From: Candidatus Latescibacterota bacterium
GTDB taxonomy: Bacteria > JAAXHH01 > JACQVL01
Assembly: GCA_016209865.1 (NCBI GenBank)
Contig: JACQVL010000262.1
Location: 1 to 55,834 of the forward strand
DNA length: 55,834 nt
Direction: 5' to 3'
Positions 2,621 to 52,808 of the stretch are shown here, in pieces (position 1 is the stretch's first letter; each line of letters begins with the position of its first letter). The notes under the pieces are model-generated. The model ran no database searches. It was not told the origin of the DNA and worked only from the letters and a program-made list of their open reading frames with translations. Made by a program: the position numbers and the translations under genes.

Positions 2621-2680
2621 TAGTGGTCGGTGGTCAGTGGTCGGTTAAATCAGTGACGAGTGACCAGTGACGAGTAAAAC
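2621..2680. repeat. Heptamer arrays: GGTCGGT words then GTGACGA words
   Basis: Bases 2622-2646 are head-to-tail GGTCGGT/GGTCAGT words and 2652-2677 are GTGACGA/GTGACCA words. The same two families recur in inverted order at 3817-3877, so the two sites form long imperfect inverted repeats around the 118-residue gene and trmB. No coding potential is credited here. Confidence 0.8.
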
Positions 2681-3188: not shown

Positions 3189-3804
3189 CCTGATGATCCA
3201 GATCAGCGCCCTGGACGGTCCGTTCGACTGGGTCGCCCTGTTCGGGAACGCGAGTCCGGTCGAGGTCGAGATCGGGTGCGGGAAGGGCCGGTTCCTGATC
3301 GCCTCCGCCATGCAGTATCCGGACGTGAACTATGTCGGGATCGAGCGAGCCGTCCGGTATTTCCGCATCGTCAAGGAACGGGTCGCCAGACGCGCCCTGA
3401 CGAACGTCCGGCTGCTCTGTGACGATGCCGGGTATTTCGTCCGGAAGTTCATTCCCGATGGGTCGATCGGGGCGTATCACGTCTACTTCCCGGACCCCTG
3501 GCCGAAGAAGCGGCATCGCAAGCGCCGGCTGTTCCAGGGAGACTTTCCCGCCCATCTTGCGCGGACCCTCTGCGCGGAGGGGACGATCGATCTCGCCACG
3601 GATTATGAGGAATATTTCAGCGAGATCGTCAGTCTGCTCGATGCCTGTCCCGGCCTACGTCGCATGTCCGGCCTGCCCGACCGGGTCCGTCTGCTGGGAA
3701 CCGGCGTGACGAACTTTGAGGTTAAGTATACAGCAGAAGGCCGTTTGATCTACCGGGCGGCGTTCCGGAAGACCGATGATGGATTCCCGCTTGCGCAGGA
3801 ATGA
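3181..3804 (+). CDS. trmB: tRNA (guanine-N7)-methyltransferase
   Basis: TrmB makes m7G46 in the variable loop of tRNAs using S-adenosylmethionine. The 207-residue protein has the SAM site EIGCGKGRF, the YVGIE acidic loop after strand 2, and the family-defining FPDPWPKKRHRKRR motif followed by an LATDYEEY block. GTG at 3181 is the start, overlapping the upstream gene by 8 bases. The last residues (GFPLAQE) and the stop codon are encoded by a dRS3-like repeat at 3781-3805, so the native C-terminus appears to have been replaced or trimmed by repeat insertion. Identification is firm. Confidence 0.93.
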   Translation: MADLMIQISALDGPFDWVALFGNASPVEVEIGCGKGRFLIASAMQYPDVNYVGIERAVRYFRIVKERVARRALTNVRLLCDDAGYFVRKFIPDGSIGAYHVYFPDPWPKKRHRKRRLFQGDFPAHLARTLCAEGTIDLATDYEEYFSEIVSLLDACPGLRRMSGLPDRVRLLGTGVTNFEVKYTAEGRLIYRAAFRKTDDGFPLAQE

Positions 3805-3880
3805 CGACCGTTCTTCTCGTCACTCGTCACTGGTCACTCGTCACTGATTCTTACCGACCACCGATCACCGACCACCGTAC
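3781..3880. repeat. Composite repeat: dRS3-like hairpin, then GTGACGA and GGTCGGT arrays (inverted)
   Basis: Bases 3781-3805 are an ATTCCC-N8-GGGAAT-like hairpin in reverse orientation that overlaps the end of trmB. Bases 3817-3846 are TCGTCAC/TGGTCAC words and 3853-3877 are ACCGACC words, the complement and inverse order of the arrays at 2622-2677. The open frame that runs through it into the ArsA gene is not counted as coding. Confidence 0.8.
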
Positions 3881-21886: not shown

Positions 21887-21900
21887 GGGGACTCCTTTGG

Positions 21901-24679
<2,779 letters not shown>

Positions 24680-32125: not shown

Positions 32126-32162
32126 CGGCGCACCCCTCTATGAGATGGGAAAGATTTTTTCC

Positions 32163-32191
32163 AATATACACAAGAATTTTGGCGGGCGCAA
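32163..32191 (-). promoter_or_regulatory. Promoter for the kinase-regulator operon
   Basis: On the minus strand TTGCGC (32191-32186) and TATATT (32168-32163) with a 17-base spacer, 37 bases before the kinase ATG. Confidence 0.6.
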
Positions 32192-32212
32192 GACGGGAGT
32201 ACAGATTCGCGC

Positions 32213-32241
32213 TTGACTTTCCCCGGCTGTGGGTATTATAT
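32213..32241 (+). promoter_or_regulatory. Promoter for murG-mraY
   Basis: TTGACT at 32213-32218 and TTATAT at 32236-32241 (17-base spacing; overlapping TATATA gives 18). It is divergent from the kinase promoter, with starts only about 180 bases apart. Confidence 0.62.
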
Positions 32242-32307
32242 ACGAAAAGACGTAGGGTGACTTCCTTCCTCTCATCACCGACCCTCTCCAGACACGGCGT
32301 GGACGCG

Positions 32308-34401
32308 ATGACCTACCTCTTGACTGGCGGCGGAACGGGCGGGCACGTTTATCCAGGGTTGGCGATCGCGGACGAGATCCGGCGGCGGCAGCCAGATGCC
32401 CGGATCGTCTACGTCGGCGCACGCGGCAAGATCGAGGCGCAACTCGTCCCGCAGCGCGGCTATCCGATCCGCCTCGTCTGGGCGCGCGGCCTGCCGCGAC
32501 AGAAGCGGCCGCTCGCCCTGCTCTCGTTCCTCCTCGTCACCACTCTCGGTGTCCTCCAGAGCGTCGTCATCCTGCTCGCTACCCGTCCCCGCGTCGTCGT
32601 GGCGACGGGCGGCTACGCGAGCGGCCCGGTGATGCTCGCCCTGGCCCTCCTCCGGCGTCTCCATCTCTCTTCCGCCAGGACGTTCATCCACGAGCAGAAC
32701 GTTGTCCCCGGCCTGGTGAACCGTCTGGCGGGCCGGATGGCGGACGTGATCGGCGTCTCATTCAGCGAGAGCATCCGGCGTTTCGACGCCTCGAAGGTCG
32801 TCCGGGTGGGCTACCCGGTGCGCCGGGAGATCGCCTCCGTCACCCGGGACGAGGCCCGGCAGGCGTTAGGTCTCCCTGGCGACGCGCAGGTGGTGTTCGC
32901 GTTCGGCGGCTCGCAGGGCTCCCGCACGATCAACCGGGCGATCGTCGATGCGCTGCCCGCCTTGCTGCCGCGCGAACGGTTGTACCTGATTCATGCGATC
33001 GGTCTGTTTAAGGGCACACAGTACCATGCGGCACACGATACGGCGGCGCGGATGGTAGGCGCCGGCCTTCGTCCGGAGGACCTGCCGCGCTACCGGCAAG
33101 TCGAGTATGTGTACGATATCCAGACGGTCTACGCGGCGAGCGACCTGGTCATCTGTCGAGCGGGCGCGGCGACCCTGAACGAGGTCTGCGCCTGCGGGCT
33201 TCCGTCGATCATCATCCCGATCTCCAACACGCCGGGAGACCATCAGGCGCTGAACGCGAAGACCCTCGAAACCGCCGGAGCGGCGCGTGTCCTCTACGAA
33301 GAAGCGATCCTTGAGGACGGACGCATCGTCGGAGCGGTCAACGGGCGCCGGCTGGCCCAGGCGATCCTGGGGTTGCTCGATGCGCCCGTGCAACTGGCGG
33401 AGATGGCCGCACGGGCACGCACGATGTTCGACCGGGATGTGCTCGACCGGATCATGGCGTGTGTCGATCGTCTGACGGCATCGAGTCCAGGACAGGCTGA
33501 GGCGGGGTACGCACACGGCAAGACCGAGGATGACGGAAAAGCCGCTCTCAATGCCATTCCAGAAGCGCCCGTCCAGCCGTCCCTCGCCGACGTGGAGGAG
33601 ACGGCGCAGTTGTCGCCGTTCCAGATGCTCCAGTTCGTCCAGAAGCATCCGGGCGGCCAGCTCGCGCAGGTGATCGACCTCGACTACCTGAAGTACAAAG
33701 TGGACGGCTATCTGATCGCACCGGCCTGGCAGGTGCGGAACGTCGGGGTCAAGCTCGTCGGCTTGTTAGGCTACCGGGAGAAACTCCCCCTCCTCCTTTT
33801 CATGCTCCAGGACCGCACGCCAGTCCCATGGCTGCACCGGCTGTTCGGCGGGGATTATCAGCAGGTCGGGTTCATCCGCCGGAATATCGTGCAGACGCTC
33901 ATCCAGGTCGGTGAGTACACCCCGGAGGTCCGAACCGCCCTGCTCGCCGGGCTGGCGGACCCTTACTACGAAGTCCGGTCGTGGTCGGCCCGAGCGTTCG
34001 GCCGGCTTTCCCCGCTCGCCGGGCCGGATGACGAGGTCGAGCGGCGGCTGATCGAGCGGCTCCACGACCCGTCGTTCGAGGCGGTCGTCGAAGCCATCGC
34101 GGCGCTGGGCAAAGTCGGAGGAGCCCCAACCCATGCGCTGCTCCGGGAATTCTACGCCGAGGCCAACTCGAAAATCCGTGAAGCCGTCATCCGGACGTTG
34201 ATCGACCTGATGGATCGTGGCCTCATCCCCGACCTCGACGCGCTGGCGGTTGAGGTGCAGGATATGCTGGTCACGTGTGAAGACTTTCAACCGACGTTCC
34301 CCATCAAACGGGCCCTCAACAACCTGGGGACAGCCCTGAAAGAACGCCAGCAGGCGGTGCCATGCTCTACCACCTCAGCACCTATCTCTACCACACCGTA
34401 G
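32308..34401 (+). CDS. murG: MurG glycosyltransferase fused to a C-terminal HEAT-like repeat domain
   Basis: MurG transfers GlcNAc to lipid I to form lipid II at the inner face of the membrane. Residues 1-385 are a complete MurG: GGGTGGH at 7-13, VVATGGYASGP near 100, FGGSQGS near 200, RAGAATLNEVCACGLPSIII near 285 and GDHQALNA. Instead of ending at ~360 residues the same frame continues through a linker into about 240 residues of helical pairs (QVRNVGVKLVGLLGYREKLP, YYEVRSWSARAFGRL, FEAVVEAIAALGKVGG) typical of HEAT/PBS-lyase-like repeats. The total is 697 residues. ATG 32308 is the start. The end overlaps mraY by 40 bases in another frame. Confidence 0.88.
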   Translation: MTYLLTGGGTGGHVYPGLAIADEIRRRQPDARIVYVGARGKIEAQLVPQRGYPIRLVWARGLPRQKRPLALLSFLLVTTLGVLQSVVILLATRPRVVVATGGYASGPVMLALALLRRLHLSSARTFIHEQNVVPGLVNRLAGRMADVIGVSFSESIRRFDASKVVRVGYPVRREIASVTRDEARQALGLPGDAQVVFAFGGSQGSRTINRAIVDALPALLPRERLYLIHAIGLFKGTQYHAAHDTAARMVGAGLRPEDLPRYRQVEYVYDIQTVYAASDLVICRAGAATLNEVCACGLPSIIIPISNTPGDHQALNAKTLETAGAARVLYEEAILEDGRIVGAVNGRRLAQAILGLLDAPVQLAEMAARARTMFDRDVLDRIMACVDRLTASSPGQAEAGYAHGKTEDDGKAALNAIPEAPVQPSLADVEETAQLSPFQMLQFVQKHPGGQLAQVIDLDYLKYKVDGYLIAPAWQVRNVGVKLVGLLGYREKLPLLLFMLQDRTPVPWLHRLFGGDYQQVGFIRRNIVQTLIQVGEYTPEVRTALLAGLADPYYEVRSWSARAFGRLSPLAGPDDEVERRLIERLHDPSFEAVVEAIAALGKVGGAPTHALLREFYAEANSKIREAVIRTLIDLMDRGLIPDLDALAVEVQDMLVTCEDFQPTFPIKRALNNLGTALKERQQAVPCSTTSAPISTTP

Positions 34402-35484: not shown

Positions 35485-36579
35485 ATGCTGCACTTTGAGT
35501 ACTCCAAATGGGTGCCTGAGCCGGACGAACAGAAGAACAAGCTCGATGAGTTGATGAACATCTTCAGCTACATCCTCATCCAGACGAACGGGAATGTGGA
35601 AGAAGCGTTAGACTGGATGAAATTCTTAGACAACCGGTACGGTATCTTCGGGGACGAGACGAATTTCGAGGAATTCCTGCAGGAACTCGAACGGCAGGGG
35701 TACATCGAACGGCAGAAGACGGTCTACGTCCTGACGGATAAAGGGGGACGGCGGATCCGGGAGGATTCTCTGAAGCACATCTTCAGCTCCCTCAAGAAGG
35801 GCCTCTCCGGGAGTCACGACACCCCGTACGAGGGGGAAGGCGTCGACCGGACGAGCGAGACGAGGCCGTACCGGTTTGGCGACCCGGCGACCAACATCGA
35901 CTTCACGTCAACCCTCAGCAACACCATCCGGCGCGACGGGTTCGACTTGCGGCTTCAGGAAGAAGACTTCGAGGTGTATGAGGTCGAGCACACGACCGCC
36001 TGCGCGACGGTGATGCTGCTCGACATCAGTCACAGCATGATCCTGTACGGGGAGGACCGGATCTCGCCCGCCAAGCGGGTGGCGTTAGCGTTAGCGGAAT
36101 TGATCCTCCGGAAGTACCCGAAGGACCAGCTCGAGCTCGTCCTGTTCGGCGACCAGGCGAAGCGGGTCAACGTCGAGGACCTGCCGTTCGTCTCCGTCGG
36201 CCCGTACCACACGAACACGAAAGCGGCGCTGGGGCTGGCCCGGAACCTCCTCCGCCGGACGAGGAACGTCAACAAGCAGGTCTTCATGATCACAGACGGC
36301 AAGCCGTCCGCCATCTATGAGAAGAACGGCCGCCTGTACCGCAATTCGTTCGGCCTCGACCCGAAGATCGTCAACCGGACGCTCGACGAGGCAGTAGCCT
36401 GCCGGCGGGAAAAGATCACGATCTGCACGTTTATGGTGGCGCAGGACCCGTACTTGATGAGTTTTGTGCAGAAGTTGACGGAGATGAACCGGGGGCGGGC
36501 GTACTTCTCGTCGCTCGACAACTTGGGCGAGTACATCTTGGTCGACTACGTGCGGAACCGGAAGCGGCGGGTGAGTTGA
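35485..36579 (+). CDS. VWA-domain protein with N-terminal helical module
   Basis: A 364-residue cytoplasmic protein. The N-terminal half carries helical segments and a winged-helix-like stretch (FLQELERQGYIERQKTVYVLTDKG). The C-terminal half is a von Willebrand A domain with MIDAS DISHSM (D-x-S-x-S) near residue 180, the supporting Thr region and ITDGKPSA. Relatives usually pair with a MoxR/Mg-chelatase-like AAA+ ATPase and act as a chaperone or insertase adaptor, but no such ATPase is in the window. ATG 35485 follows AGGAG, 13 bases after mraY. It converges on hemQ across a large repeat palindrome. Confidence 0.82.
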   Translation: MLHFEYSKWVPEPDEQKNKLDELMNIFSYILIQTNGNVEEALDWMKFLDNRYGIFGDETNFEEFLQELERQGYIERQKTVYVLTDKGGRRIREDSLKHIFSSLKKGLSGSHDTPYEGEGVDRTSETRPYRFGDPATNIDFTSTLSNTIRRDGFDLRLQEEDFEVYEVEHTTACATVMLLDISHSMILYGEDRISPAKRVALALAELILRKYPKDQLELVLFGDQAKRVNVEDLPFVSVGPYHTNTKAALGLARNLLRRTRNVNKQVFMITDGKPSAIYEKNGRLYRNSFGLDPKIVNRTLDEAVACRREKITICTFMVAQDPYLMSFVQKLTEMNRGRAYFSSLDNLGEYILVDYVRNRKRRVS

Positions 36580-36587
36580 GGGGAAGA

Positions 36588-36810
36588 AATCCGGGGTACG
36601 GGGTTCGGGATTCGGGGAGAAAACATCGGGATACGGGGTACGGGATACGGGGTACGGGAAAGCATACAGAAGGACACCCACAAGGGGTAGCCTTATACTC
36701 ATGCTGTCATTCCCGCGCAAGCGGGAATCCATTTCCCGGACCCCGAATCCCGTACCCCGTCTTGTCTCTTTTCCCGGACCCCGTACCCCGAATCCCGTAC
36801 CCCGGGTTTT
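36588..36810. repeat. Composite palindrome: GGRTWCG arrays around a dRS3-like hairpin
   Basis: Left arm 36592-36660 (GGGTACG, GGGTTCG, GGATTCG, GGATACG words) and right arm 36734-36806 (CGTACCC, CGAATCC words) are inverted and enclose GTCATTCCCGCGCAAGCGGG and AATCC (36706-36732). It fills the 233-base spacer between convergent VWA and hemQ genes; no gene is seen in it. Confidence 0.85.
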
Positions 36811-36812
36811 TC

Positions 36813-37550
36813 TCATCCAACCTGATCGAGGATCGCCCGGAGATCGCGCCGCACGCACGTGAAGATCGGGGTGTCCCGCAGCGTATACCGGCTGCCCTCG
36901 GTCTCCCGCAGCTCCATGACGAGGTCGAGGAAATCATCCGGCTTGTCCGTCTCGAACGCGACGACGAACTCCTGGTCGTCCAGGCCGAACGAGTACGTCG
37001 TGTTGAGCTTGACGGAGGCGTACCGGTGGCCGACCTCGATGTGCTCGTTCATCATCCCCTGGCGGGTGGCTTTCGACAGCCGGTACCAGTCCCGCGTCTT
37101 GACGAACGGGTAGACGAACAGGTACTTGGCCTCTCCGGGGATGATGTGCAGCCGGGTGCCTTCCTGGCCTTCGTGGTGGTGTCTGTCCACGTAGATCGAT
37201 CGTTTCGTCATCGACAGGAGTGAGTACGGGGTGTCCAGGTATTTCCCCAGGCCGGTCCGGAGGAGCTGCGCGGTCATCTCCTGGAACGACTCGATCTCGT
37301 ACCCGATCCGCCAGAGCATGAAATCGGTGTCGGCGCGGAGTCCGACCGTCGAGTACGGCAGGACGATCATCTGCGGGAGAAACTGCTCGACCACGCCCGC
37401 GAATTCCCGCTTCCCCTCGTCCTGCTCGGACGCGGGCAGCCGGCGCCAGGCGGAATCGGCCTTGTAGAACGCGAAATTGACGTACTGCCGCCGCGCCGGC
37501 TCAGCCGGTTCCGTCCCCCGGCCTCGGCCAGATCGTTCATGGCTACTCAT
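36813..37550 (-). CDS. hemQ: HemQ-type coproheme decarboxylase (chlorite dismutase family)
   Basis: A 245-residue heme protein of the chlorite-dismutase superfamily. Features pointing to HemQ are the Tyr in KYLFVYPFVKTRDWYRL, where the catalytic Tyr of coproheme decarboxylation sits, and the proximal His region MMNEHIEVGHRYASV, followed by TTYSFGLDDQEFVVAFE. HemQ converts coproheme III to heme b in the coproporphyrin-dependent pathway. No other heme genes are nearby. The N-terminal 20 residues are a Gly/Arg/Pro-rich tail without a signal peptide. ATG 37550 follows GGAG. True chlorite dismutase is less likely, since it is normally exported and carries a distal Arg I cannot place here. Confidence 0.82.
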   Translation of the reverse strand: MSSHERSGRGRGTEPAEPARRQYVNFAFYKADSAWRRLPASEQDEGKREFAGVVEQFLPQMIVLPYSTVGLRADTDFMLWRIGYEIESFQEMTAQLLRTGLGKYLDTPYSLLSMTKRSIYVDRHHHEGQEGTRLHIIPGEAKYLFVYPFVKTRDWYRLSKATRQGMMNEHIEVGHRYASVKLNTTYSFGLDDQEFVVAFETDKPDDFLDLVMELRETEGSRYTLRDTPIFTCVRRDLRAILDQVG

Positions 37551-38805: not shown

Positions 38806-38906
38806 GCAAGGATGAAGGGGTAAGGACGAAGGACGAACAGTAAGGATTCATGAAACGTGTCATTCCCACGCAAGCGGGAATCCATCGCTTTGGCCTTCGT
38901 CCTTGT
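38806..38906. repeat. Composite palindrome: GGACGAA arrays around a dRS3-like hairpin, copy 1
   Basis: Left array 38806-38850 (GGATGAA, GGACGAA words), hairpin CATTCCCACGCAAGCGGGAA and TCC (38859-38885), then a short inverted array CTTCGTCCTTG (38894-38906). Confidence 0.8.
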
Positions 38907-39061: not shown

Positions 39062-39193
39062 AGTAAGGACGAAGGAGTAAGGACGAAGGACGAAATTGAA
39101 AGGATGAAAGACAACTCTCTTGTTTCTGTCATTCCCGCGCAAGCGGGAATCCATCATCTTTTTCGTCCTTTGTCCTTCATACTTCGTCCTTGC
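39062..39193. repeat. Composite palindrome: GGACGAA arrays around a dRS3-like hairpin, copy 2
   Basis: Left array 39062-39110 (about seven words), hairpin CATTCCCGCGCAAGCGGGAA and TCC (39129-39153) and right array 39159-39193 (TTCGTCC, TTTGTCC words). An open frame crossing it into the lipoprotein gene is not coding. Confidence 0.82.
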
Positions 39194-41889: not shown

Positions 41890-41905
41890 AGAGACTCCTA
41901 AGTAA

Positions 41906-42000
41906 TAAGGACGAAGGATGAAGGACGAAAAGGACAAACTGCCGTTACTTTGTTTCGCCCTTTCTTGTTCGTCCTTCGTACTTTGTACTTCGTCCTTGCT
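41906..42000. repeat. Palindromic GGACGAA element between rpsK and rpsD
   Basis: Left arm 41906-41939 (AAGGACGAAGGATGAAGGAC and onwards) and right arm 41967-42000 (TTCGTCCTTCGTACTTTGTA and onwards) form a long imperfect hairpin in the middle of the alpha operon transcript. Confidence 0.82.
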
Positions 42001-42418: not shown

Positions 42419-42455
42419 GAACGTGCAAACGTTCTAACGTGCCAACGTGTGAACG
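42419..42455. repeat. AACGTGC-type short-word array between rpsM and rpsK
   Basis: About four 8-base units AACGTGCA/AACGTTCT/AACGTGCC/AACGTGTG fill the spacer just upstream of the rpsK ribosome-binding site. The unit length differs from the heptamer families but the style is the same. Confidence 0.65.
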
Positions 42456-44069: not shown

Positions 44070-44146
44070 TAAGGACGAAGGATGAAGGTCGAAAAGAACA
44101 TTCTGTCTTATACTTTTCGTCCTTCGTCCTTACCCCTTCGTCCTTG
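44070..44146. repeat. Palindromic GGACGAA element between adk and map, overlapping the adk stop
   Basis: Left arm 44070-44095 (AAGGACGAAGGATGAAGGTC and onwards) and right arm 44113-44146 (TTCGTCCTTCGTCCTTACCC and onwards). The right arm encodes the last residues and the stop of adk. Confidence 0.82.
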
Positions 44147-52708: not shown

Positions 52709-52808
52709 CAGTGACAGGTGACGAGTGACAAGTGACGAATAAGAGCCAAGAAAACCTGTCTGTTCAGAATGTTTTTTCTCGTCACTCGTCACTTACAACT
52801 CGTCACGG
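52709..52808. repeat. Palindromic GTGACGA element between rplB and rpsS
   Basis: Left arm 52709-52739 (CAGTGACAGGTGACGAGTGA and onwards) and right arm 52778-52808 (TCGTCACTCGTCACTTACAA and onwards). It lies inside the S10 operon and would form a long hairpin in the polycistronic mRNA. Confidence 0.82.

Follow-up and report, generated by a model that had tools for sequence, protein, structure and literature searches.

Short words repeated head to tail have been known for decades as heptamer arrays in the genomes of cyanobacteria, Xanthomonas, Geobacter and Beggiatoa, where they were explained separately, by G-quadruplexes, IHF sites or translational control. In a Candidatus Latescibacterota genome (GCA_016209865.1) such arrays form palindromes in intergenic spacers. 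Do the two arms arise independently by slippage, or is each palindrome gained and copied as one unit? The question was raised by a 55,834-nucleotide stretch of contig JACQVL010000262.1 (hereafter the window), in which a sequence-only reading had singled out one spacer as the clearest copy.

Results

A double-layer inverted unit occupies a spacer between convergent genes

Between the convergent stop codons of two genes, an inverted unit of CGGGRTW words in two layers takes up the whole spacer (Table 1). Its two nested layers span 36592-36805 and enclose a 75-nt core in which ATTCCCGCGCAAGCGGGAAT is present. Folded as DNA, the unit reached -79 kcal/mol against -40.5 for shuffles (z -10.3), and folded as RNA it reached -139 (z -11.2). 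No shuffle folded as well in either form.

The core also carries a palindrome that satisfies the dRS3 pattern (ATTCCC-N8-GGGAAT) at 36709-36728, and a plasmid search with the window element matched this dRS3-like core only. Besides the copy in this unit, dRS3-like palindromes were observed in the window at 21960-21979, 38862-38881 and 39131-39150, and at many other loci; 23 of 64 strict copies (1.44 Mb) lie inside the 8 kb of unit cores. This palindrome is apparently a second repeat, one that favours the units or occurs alongside them. Another palindromic repeat, GTCATTCTGAGCGAAGCGAAGAATC...CCTTCGCTGCGCTCAGGGTGACA, was seen in cores of GTGACGA units (L049 7748-7925, L110 4487-4627).

At the threshold used, 15 window spacers hold a period-7 array, and the figure comes close to the "about twenty" first proposed when weaker arrays and 8- and 9-base words are counted. 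All five window pairs have one family in both arms. A further feature of the window is an unusual domain fusion (32140-34401), an ORF in which a MurG-like glycosyltransferase and C-terminal HEAT repeats share one frame.

Table 1 Paired arrays, unit parts and flanking genes in the window. Positions count from the first letter of the window.
Feature	Position	Strand	Remark
Whole spacer, double-layer CGGGRTW inverted unit	36580-36812		between convergent stop codons
Outer left arm, CGGGRTW array	36592-36616	+	G-rich on + strand
Inner left arm, CGGGRTW array	36627-36659	+	
Core of window unit	36660-36734		72/79 identity to unit core at G000:C119 (L049) 3235-3378
dRS3-like palindrome TGTCATTCCCGCGCAAGCGGGAATCCA within the core	36705-36731	+	BLAST match to Neisseria gonorrhoeae records
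Inner right arm, CGGGRTW array	36735-36760	-	C-rich on + strand
Outer right arm, CGGGRTW array	36773-36805	-	
Left flanking gene, VWA-domain protein	35485-36579	+	stop codon 12 nt upstream of outer arm
Right flanking gene, chlorite dismutase-family (PF06778) protein	36813-37550	-	stop codon 7 nt past outer arm
Second unit, CAGGGGT family in both arms	21899-22084		dRS3-type palindrome in core
Unit, AAGGACG family in both arms	41899-41997		
Unit, AAGGACG family in both arms	44071-44131		
Unit, GTGACGA family in both arms	52711-52793		
Composite left arm, outer CGGTGGT and inner GTGACGA	2623-2675	+	
Composite right arm, inner GTGACGA and outer CGGTGGT	3816-3877	-	
8-base cousin, AACGTGNN array	42420-42455	-	

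Heptamer arrays of at least eleven families recur with about four units

We sampled 1.44 Mb (38%) of the 3.75 Mb metagenome-assembled genome, which is 83% complete, with an unbiased subset of 764 kb. The sample contained 485 period-7 arrays of 11 word families, and the main families listed in the sequence-only reading proved real and recurrent genome-wide. In the unbiased subset, 176 period-7 arrays were found against 7 in Markov shuffles; since the shuffles retain N-runs at every period, the 7 are probably N-runs. Periods 8 and 9 were mildly enriched there, and other periods stayed near background except multiples of 7 and 8. The 24-base arm pattern AGTGACGAGTGACNAGTGACGAGT occurs in 142 exact copies in the sampled genome, whereas 15 other genomes of its order have no copy. 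No arrays were found in the stretch examined of L031, the Latescibacterota genome that a single protein places as the nearest named relative.

In the GTGACGA, CGGGRTW, GATTTTG and CAGGGGT families an array typically has about four units and a further, partial one; GTGACGA often has three as well, and AAGGACG has four or two. Arrays of the 8-base family ACGTTNNN are mostly 36-38 nt long (about four and a half units), and its neighbour pairs have a single polarity in 8/8 cases. Four runs of at least three Gs are found in the CGGGRTW and CAGGGGT arrays but not in those of GTGACGA, GATTTTG, AAGGACG and CGGTGGT, which make up most arrays. Because most families lack a run of three Gs, G-quadruplexes cannot explain the four units in general, and we rejected them as the common cause; words free of G-runs and the 8-base family with its 36-38 nt arrays show the same preference.

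Several further regularities were recorded. In four-unit arrays, the second unit from the outer end most often carries the variant base (GTGACGA 0.72, AAGGACG 0.83, GATTTTG 0.65), and a check of the array words for C-avoidance gave no clear deviation. The genome also holds 8-base arrays of ACGTTNNN, GGCGAAAA and GTATGGGA and 9-base arrays of CACGAAGNN, CGCAAAGAA and CACAAAGAG, several of them as inverted pairs (8- and 9-base loci listed: L062 1556-1634, L142 8290-8423, L124 12156-12224, L082 13768).

Both arms of a pair mostly use one family and face inward

Neighbouring arrays at most 200 bp apart were treated as pairs. Across the 1.44 Mb, 112 pairs were G-rich on the left and C-rich on the right, against 2 with the reverse order. 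Both arms belonged to one family in 92 of 112 pairs (permutation null: mean 21.5, maximum 36), and in 59 of 72 on the unbiased contigs. The claim that arms "always" share a family thus held for the window and proved strong but not absolute genome-wide. Mixed-family pairs are often composite layers, whose nesting order is fixed for the commonest ones (CGGTGGT outside GTGACGA, 12/12). For about half of the arrays no partner was detected.

A word-independent check gave the same picture. Among 443 spacers of 80-400 bp, 116 had an inverted repeat across their two halves, compared with 11 when halves were swapped and 1 after shuffling, and the strongest of these repeats had a G-rich left arm in 83 cases and a C-rich one in 11.

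These counts bear on the possibility that slippage acted independently in low-complexity spacers. Tandem arrays with variants would be the expected product of slippage, but the paired family, the fixed polarity, the narrow unit number and the exact 24-mers at 142 places are not, and none came from shuffles. As the sole cause, slippage is refuted by the concordance and polarity counts, and we regard its chance of being correct as close to nil.

Most arrays run from genes into spacers whatever the gene direction

Scored against our own gene calls, 351 of 402 arrays had a G-strand that led away from the nearest gene and into the spacer, regardless of gene direction (225 stop-side in sense and 126 start-side in antisense, with 51 exceptions). 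Paired arms begin a few nucleotides past stop codons and typically about 17 nt ahead of start codons. Commonly, an A-tract stands ahead of the left arm and a T-tract past the right arm. Units per spacer are fewest between divergent genes, yet they are present there.

Such flanks, the strong predicted folding and the low number between divergent genes would suit functional RNA hairpins, namely bidirectional terminators or mRNA-stabilising intercistronic stems in which slippage makes the arrays and selection maintains arm complementarity. However, two arms taken from one unit were no more alike or complementary than two taken from separate units of that family (P 0.60-0.97), units also occur between divergent genes, and the hairpin explanation predicts neither G-first polarity on both strands nor unit-limited homology with unrelated flanks. 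We therefore consider it improbable. Because arms within a unit are not extra alike, there is no sign of selection on pairing, nor of a recent fold-back event in which one arm was copied into the other; as a recent event, such copying was rejected.

Copies of whole units lie at unlinked loci

Units made of arm, core and arm were found repeatedly at loci that are not linked and whose flanks are unrelated. Of 280 ends of unit-long homology between loci, 71% lay within 10 nt of an outer arm end, and the copies stood in both orientations relative to each other. Some of the alignments have modest identity and would have arrays in common in any case; the argument therefore rests mainly on the best ones. 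In the best case, the window unit and the L049 unit have the core identity given in Table 1 and different flanks, and L085/L176, L049/L110/L183 and L184 63/2347 follow the same pattern. Conservation within units varies: between window 36627 and L049 3235 the core (0.91) exceeds the arms (0.85, 0.69), and in L085/L176 the arms are better conserved than the core. A high-identity core is common to a few units only. Direct repeats at unit edges equalled the shuffled null, giving no target-site duplication.

Related contigs differ by presence or absence of units

IMG/VR contigs with the same words, some of them syntenic relatives with genes about 80-94% identical, showed a polarity of 71 to 3 and arms of one family in 68% of pairs against a null of 10%. 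They come from organisms other than the host of the window, and so does the empty-site evidence drawn from them. A GGCAGTA pair in L206 (8562-8676) has nothing in the orthologous spacer of L214; a 9-mer pair in L279 (4992-5106) faces a spacer of only 28 nt in L280, and a pair in L280 (5665-5761) one of only 18 nt in L279. Elsewhere both arms differ between orthologous spacers: a GGCTAAT pair in L206 corresponds to a GTTGCCA pair in L214, and a 9-mer pair of GAGTTAACC in L279 to a GATTTTG 7-mer pair in L280 (9-mers and families in these examples were assigned by eye from alignments). Orthologous spacers thus held the whole unit or none, or had exchanged both arms, with at least one changed in a single arm (L263 6257 vs L276).

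Multi-family paired heptamer arrays are abundant in the IMG/VR contigs L225, L257, L261, L268, L272, L279 and L280, and a convergent AATGATG pair on an Ignavibacteriae contig (L037 7268-7353) presents the architecture in another phylum.

With concordance above the null, fixed polarity, copies at unlinked loci and joint changes of both arms, the proposal that arrays are paired units and not products of independent slippage was upheld. Judged by sequence comparison, the shared units and their unit-level presence or absence support dispersal as a unit. Recombination without transposition offers another account: same-family arms at more than 100 loci would serve as homology or template-switch sites, ectopic gene conversion would copy cores with arms, and dispersal would be a by-product of repair. 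It accommodates shared cores that end at the arms, both orientations, near-absent transposases, missing target duplications and the higher core than arm identity of the window/L049 pair. But it requires arms already in the recipient, and whole units were seen to be present or absent; other paralogous pairs, such as L085/L176, keep their arms better; and the arms are imperfect and 24-31 nt long, which is near the lower limit for homologous recombination. We judge this account unlikely, yet the strongest of the rivals.

Few candidate mobilising enzymes were found

No RAYT/Y1 transposase (PF01797) was matched in the 83%-complete genome, although control genomes gave matches; an origin from RAYT or IS200 elements, among which the sequence-only reading had suggested looking for a transposase, is thus unsupported. 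The idea that the unit moves in folded form likewise found no support. Transposase matches in this genome were one IS110 and two DDE_Tnp_1 only, and the single-copy IS110 showed no link to units. The few same-family pairs 250-3500 bp apart enclosed no obvious transposase in the partly annotated genes of the sampled 38%. A reverse transcriptase domain was not found in the 83%-complete genome either. This weighs on an end-addition origin, in which a broken chromosome would receive short G-rich repeats at both of its 3' ends before these are rejoined, leaving two arms that carry the same word and face inward. Such an origin predicts an inward G-strand irrespective of gene direction, the same word in different variants and a limited unit number, but lacks its enzyme here and predicts neither shared cores nor copies of a unit at unlinked loci; it seems very improbable.

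Discussion

Taken as a whole, the elements are probably small and non-autonomous dispersed units, built as inverted repeats with an arm on either side of a core, that are gained, lost and copied whole. Gain would occur by insertion and not by conversion of an existing spacer, and copies may be made by a trans-acting enzyme or by replication template switch. A unit would persist only in dispensable spacer DNA, so that it reaches from just past one gene to just ahead of the next ribosome-binding region. Its arms would then drift by slippage and substitution, which would keep the word family while exact variants are not common to the two arms. The absent target duplication, the lack of a Y1 or reverse transcriptase match, the unpaired half of the arrays and the scarcity of high-identity cores count against this dispersed-unit reading.

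We propose more tentatively, as a possibility below even chances, a cross-phylum element class defined by architecture: two inward arrays of about four copies of a changeable 7-, 8- or 9-base word, G-rich first, in a unit copied or replaced by neither RAYT nor a known transposase. The data point to one common architecture with changeable words and indicate that spacers of an entire genome can be overwritten by one element kind. Since whole units come and go between orthologous spacers, the spreading of such repeats, a question of long standing, can be tested directly.

Among the closest known cases are the GGGAATC/GGGGAYT heptameric repeats of Xanthomonas and Nostoc, whose four units Rehm et al. 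(2015) linked to G-quadruplexes (PMC4692102). Those repeats have their G-strand in sense near stop codons and in antisense near start codons, differ in position between sister species, and form 70-75 convergent plus/minus pairs per Xanthomonas genome (PMC4692102). The elements described here resemble them in intergenic heptamer arrays, four-unit preference, convergent pairs and inward G-strand. In contrast, one G4-forming word was studied per genome there, whereas here no fewer than 11 families occur besides 8- and 9-mers, most of them without three-G runs, together with composite layers, shared-core unit copies and unit presence or absence between relatives. A symmetric unit tolerated only where the gene and ribosome-binding site stay intact would explain both stop- and start-side placement, and the two separate placements of Rehm et al. 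are then one rule.

In Geobacter metallireducens, Aklujkar et al. (2009, PMC2700814) describe paired sites made of 7-/8-mer arrays, divided into classes 1-3, and a 49-copy heptamer element. These sites likewise comprise several array families per genome, mostly as inverted pairs at variable distance, but are interpreted as IHF/HU binding sites, and the text consulted contains no analysis of polarity, unit number or dispersal. Inverted pairs were therefore known in Xanthomonas and Geobacter (PMC4692102, PMC2700814), and the idea of a system not yet described as one survives in a narrower form: our search of mostly open-access literature found no paper uniting these pairs with the TAACTGA repeats and the REP/RAYT systems. 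Cyanobacterial STRR and TAACTGA repeats (PMC4679880) are also short intergenic tandem heptamers, patchy across phyla, but are described as direct repeats, with a single inverted case in the TAACTGA set. The palindrome in the window-unit core fits Neisseria dRS3, but it is a repeat in its own right, distinct from the arm and found outside units as well.

REPs and RAYTs are treated in PMC3733652. With REPINs the units share two inverted same-family arms, fixed polarity, intergenic dispersal and the absence of target duplication; they differ in that RAYT was not found here, the arms are tandem word arrays instead of single palindromes, and many word families occur per genome. The REPIN-type tag GTAG was, by eye, absent from the arm consensus words. 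Like MITEs, they are short, numerous and non-autonomous, with terminal inverted repeats and a variable core, but target duplication was undetected and no matching autonomous element was found. Similar units in other bacteria suggest that small dispersed elements of this kind are widespread and have scarcely been described, and the element is a variant of REPIN/MITE-like dispersed inverted repeats.
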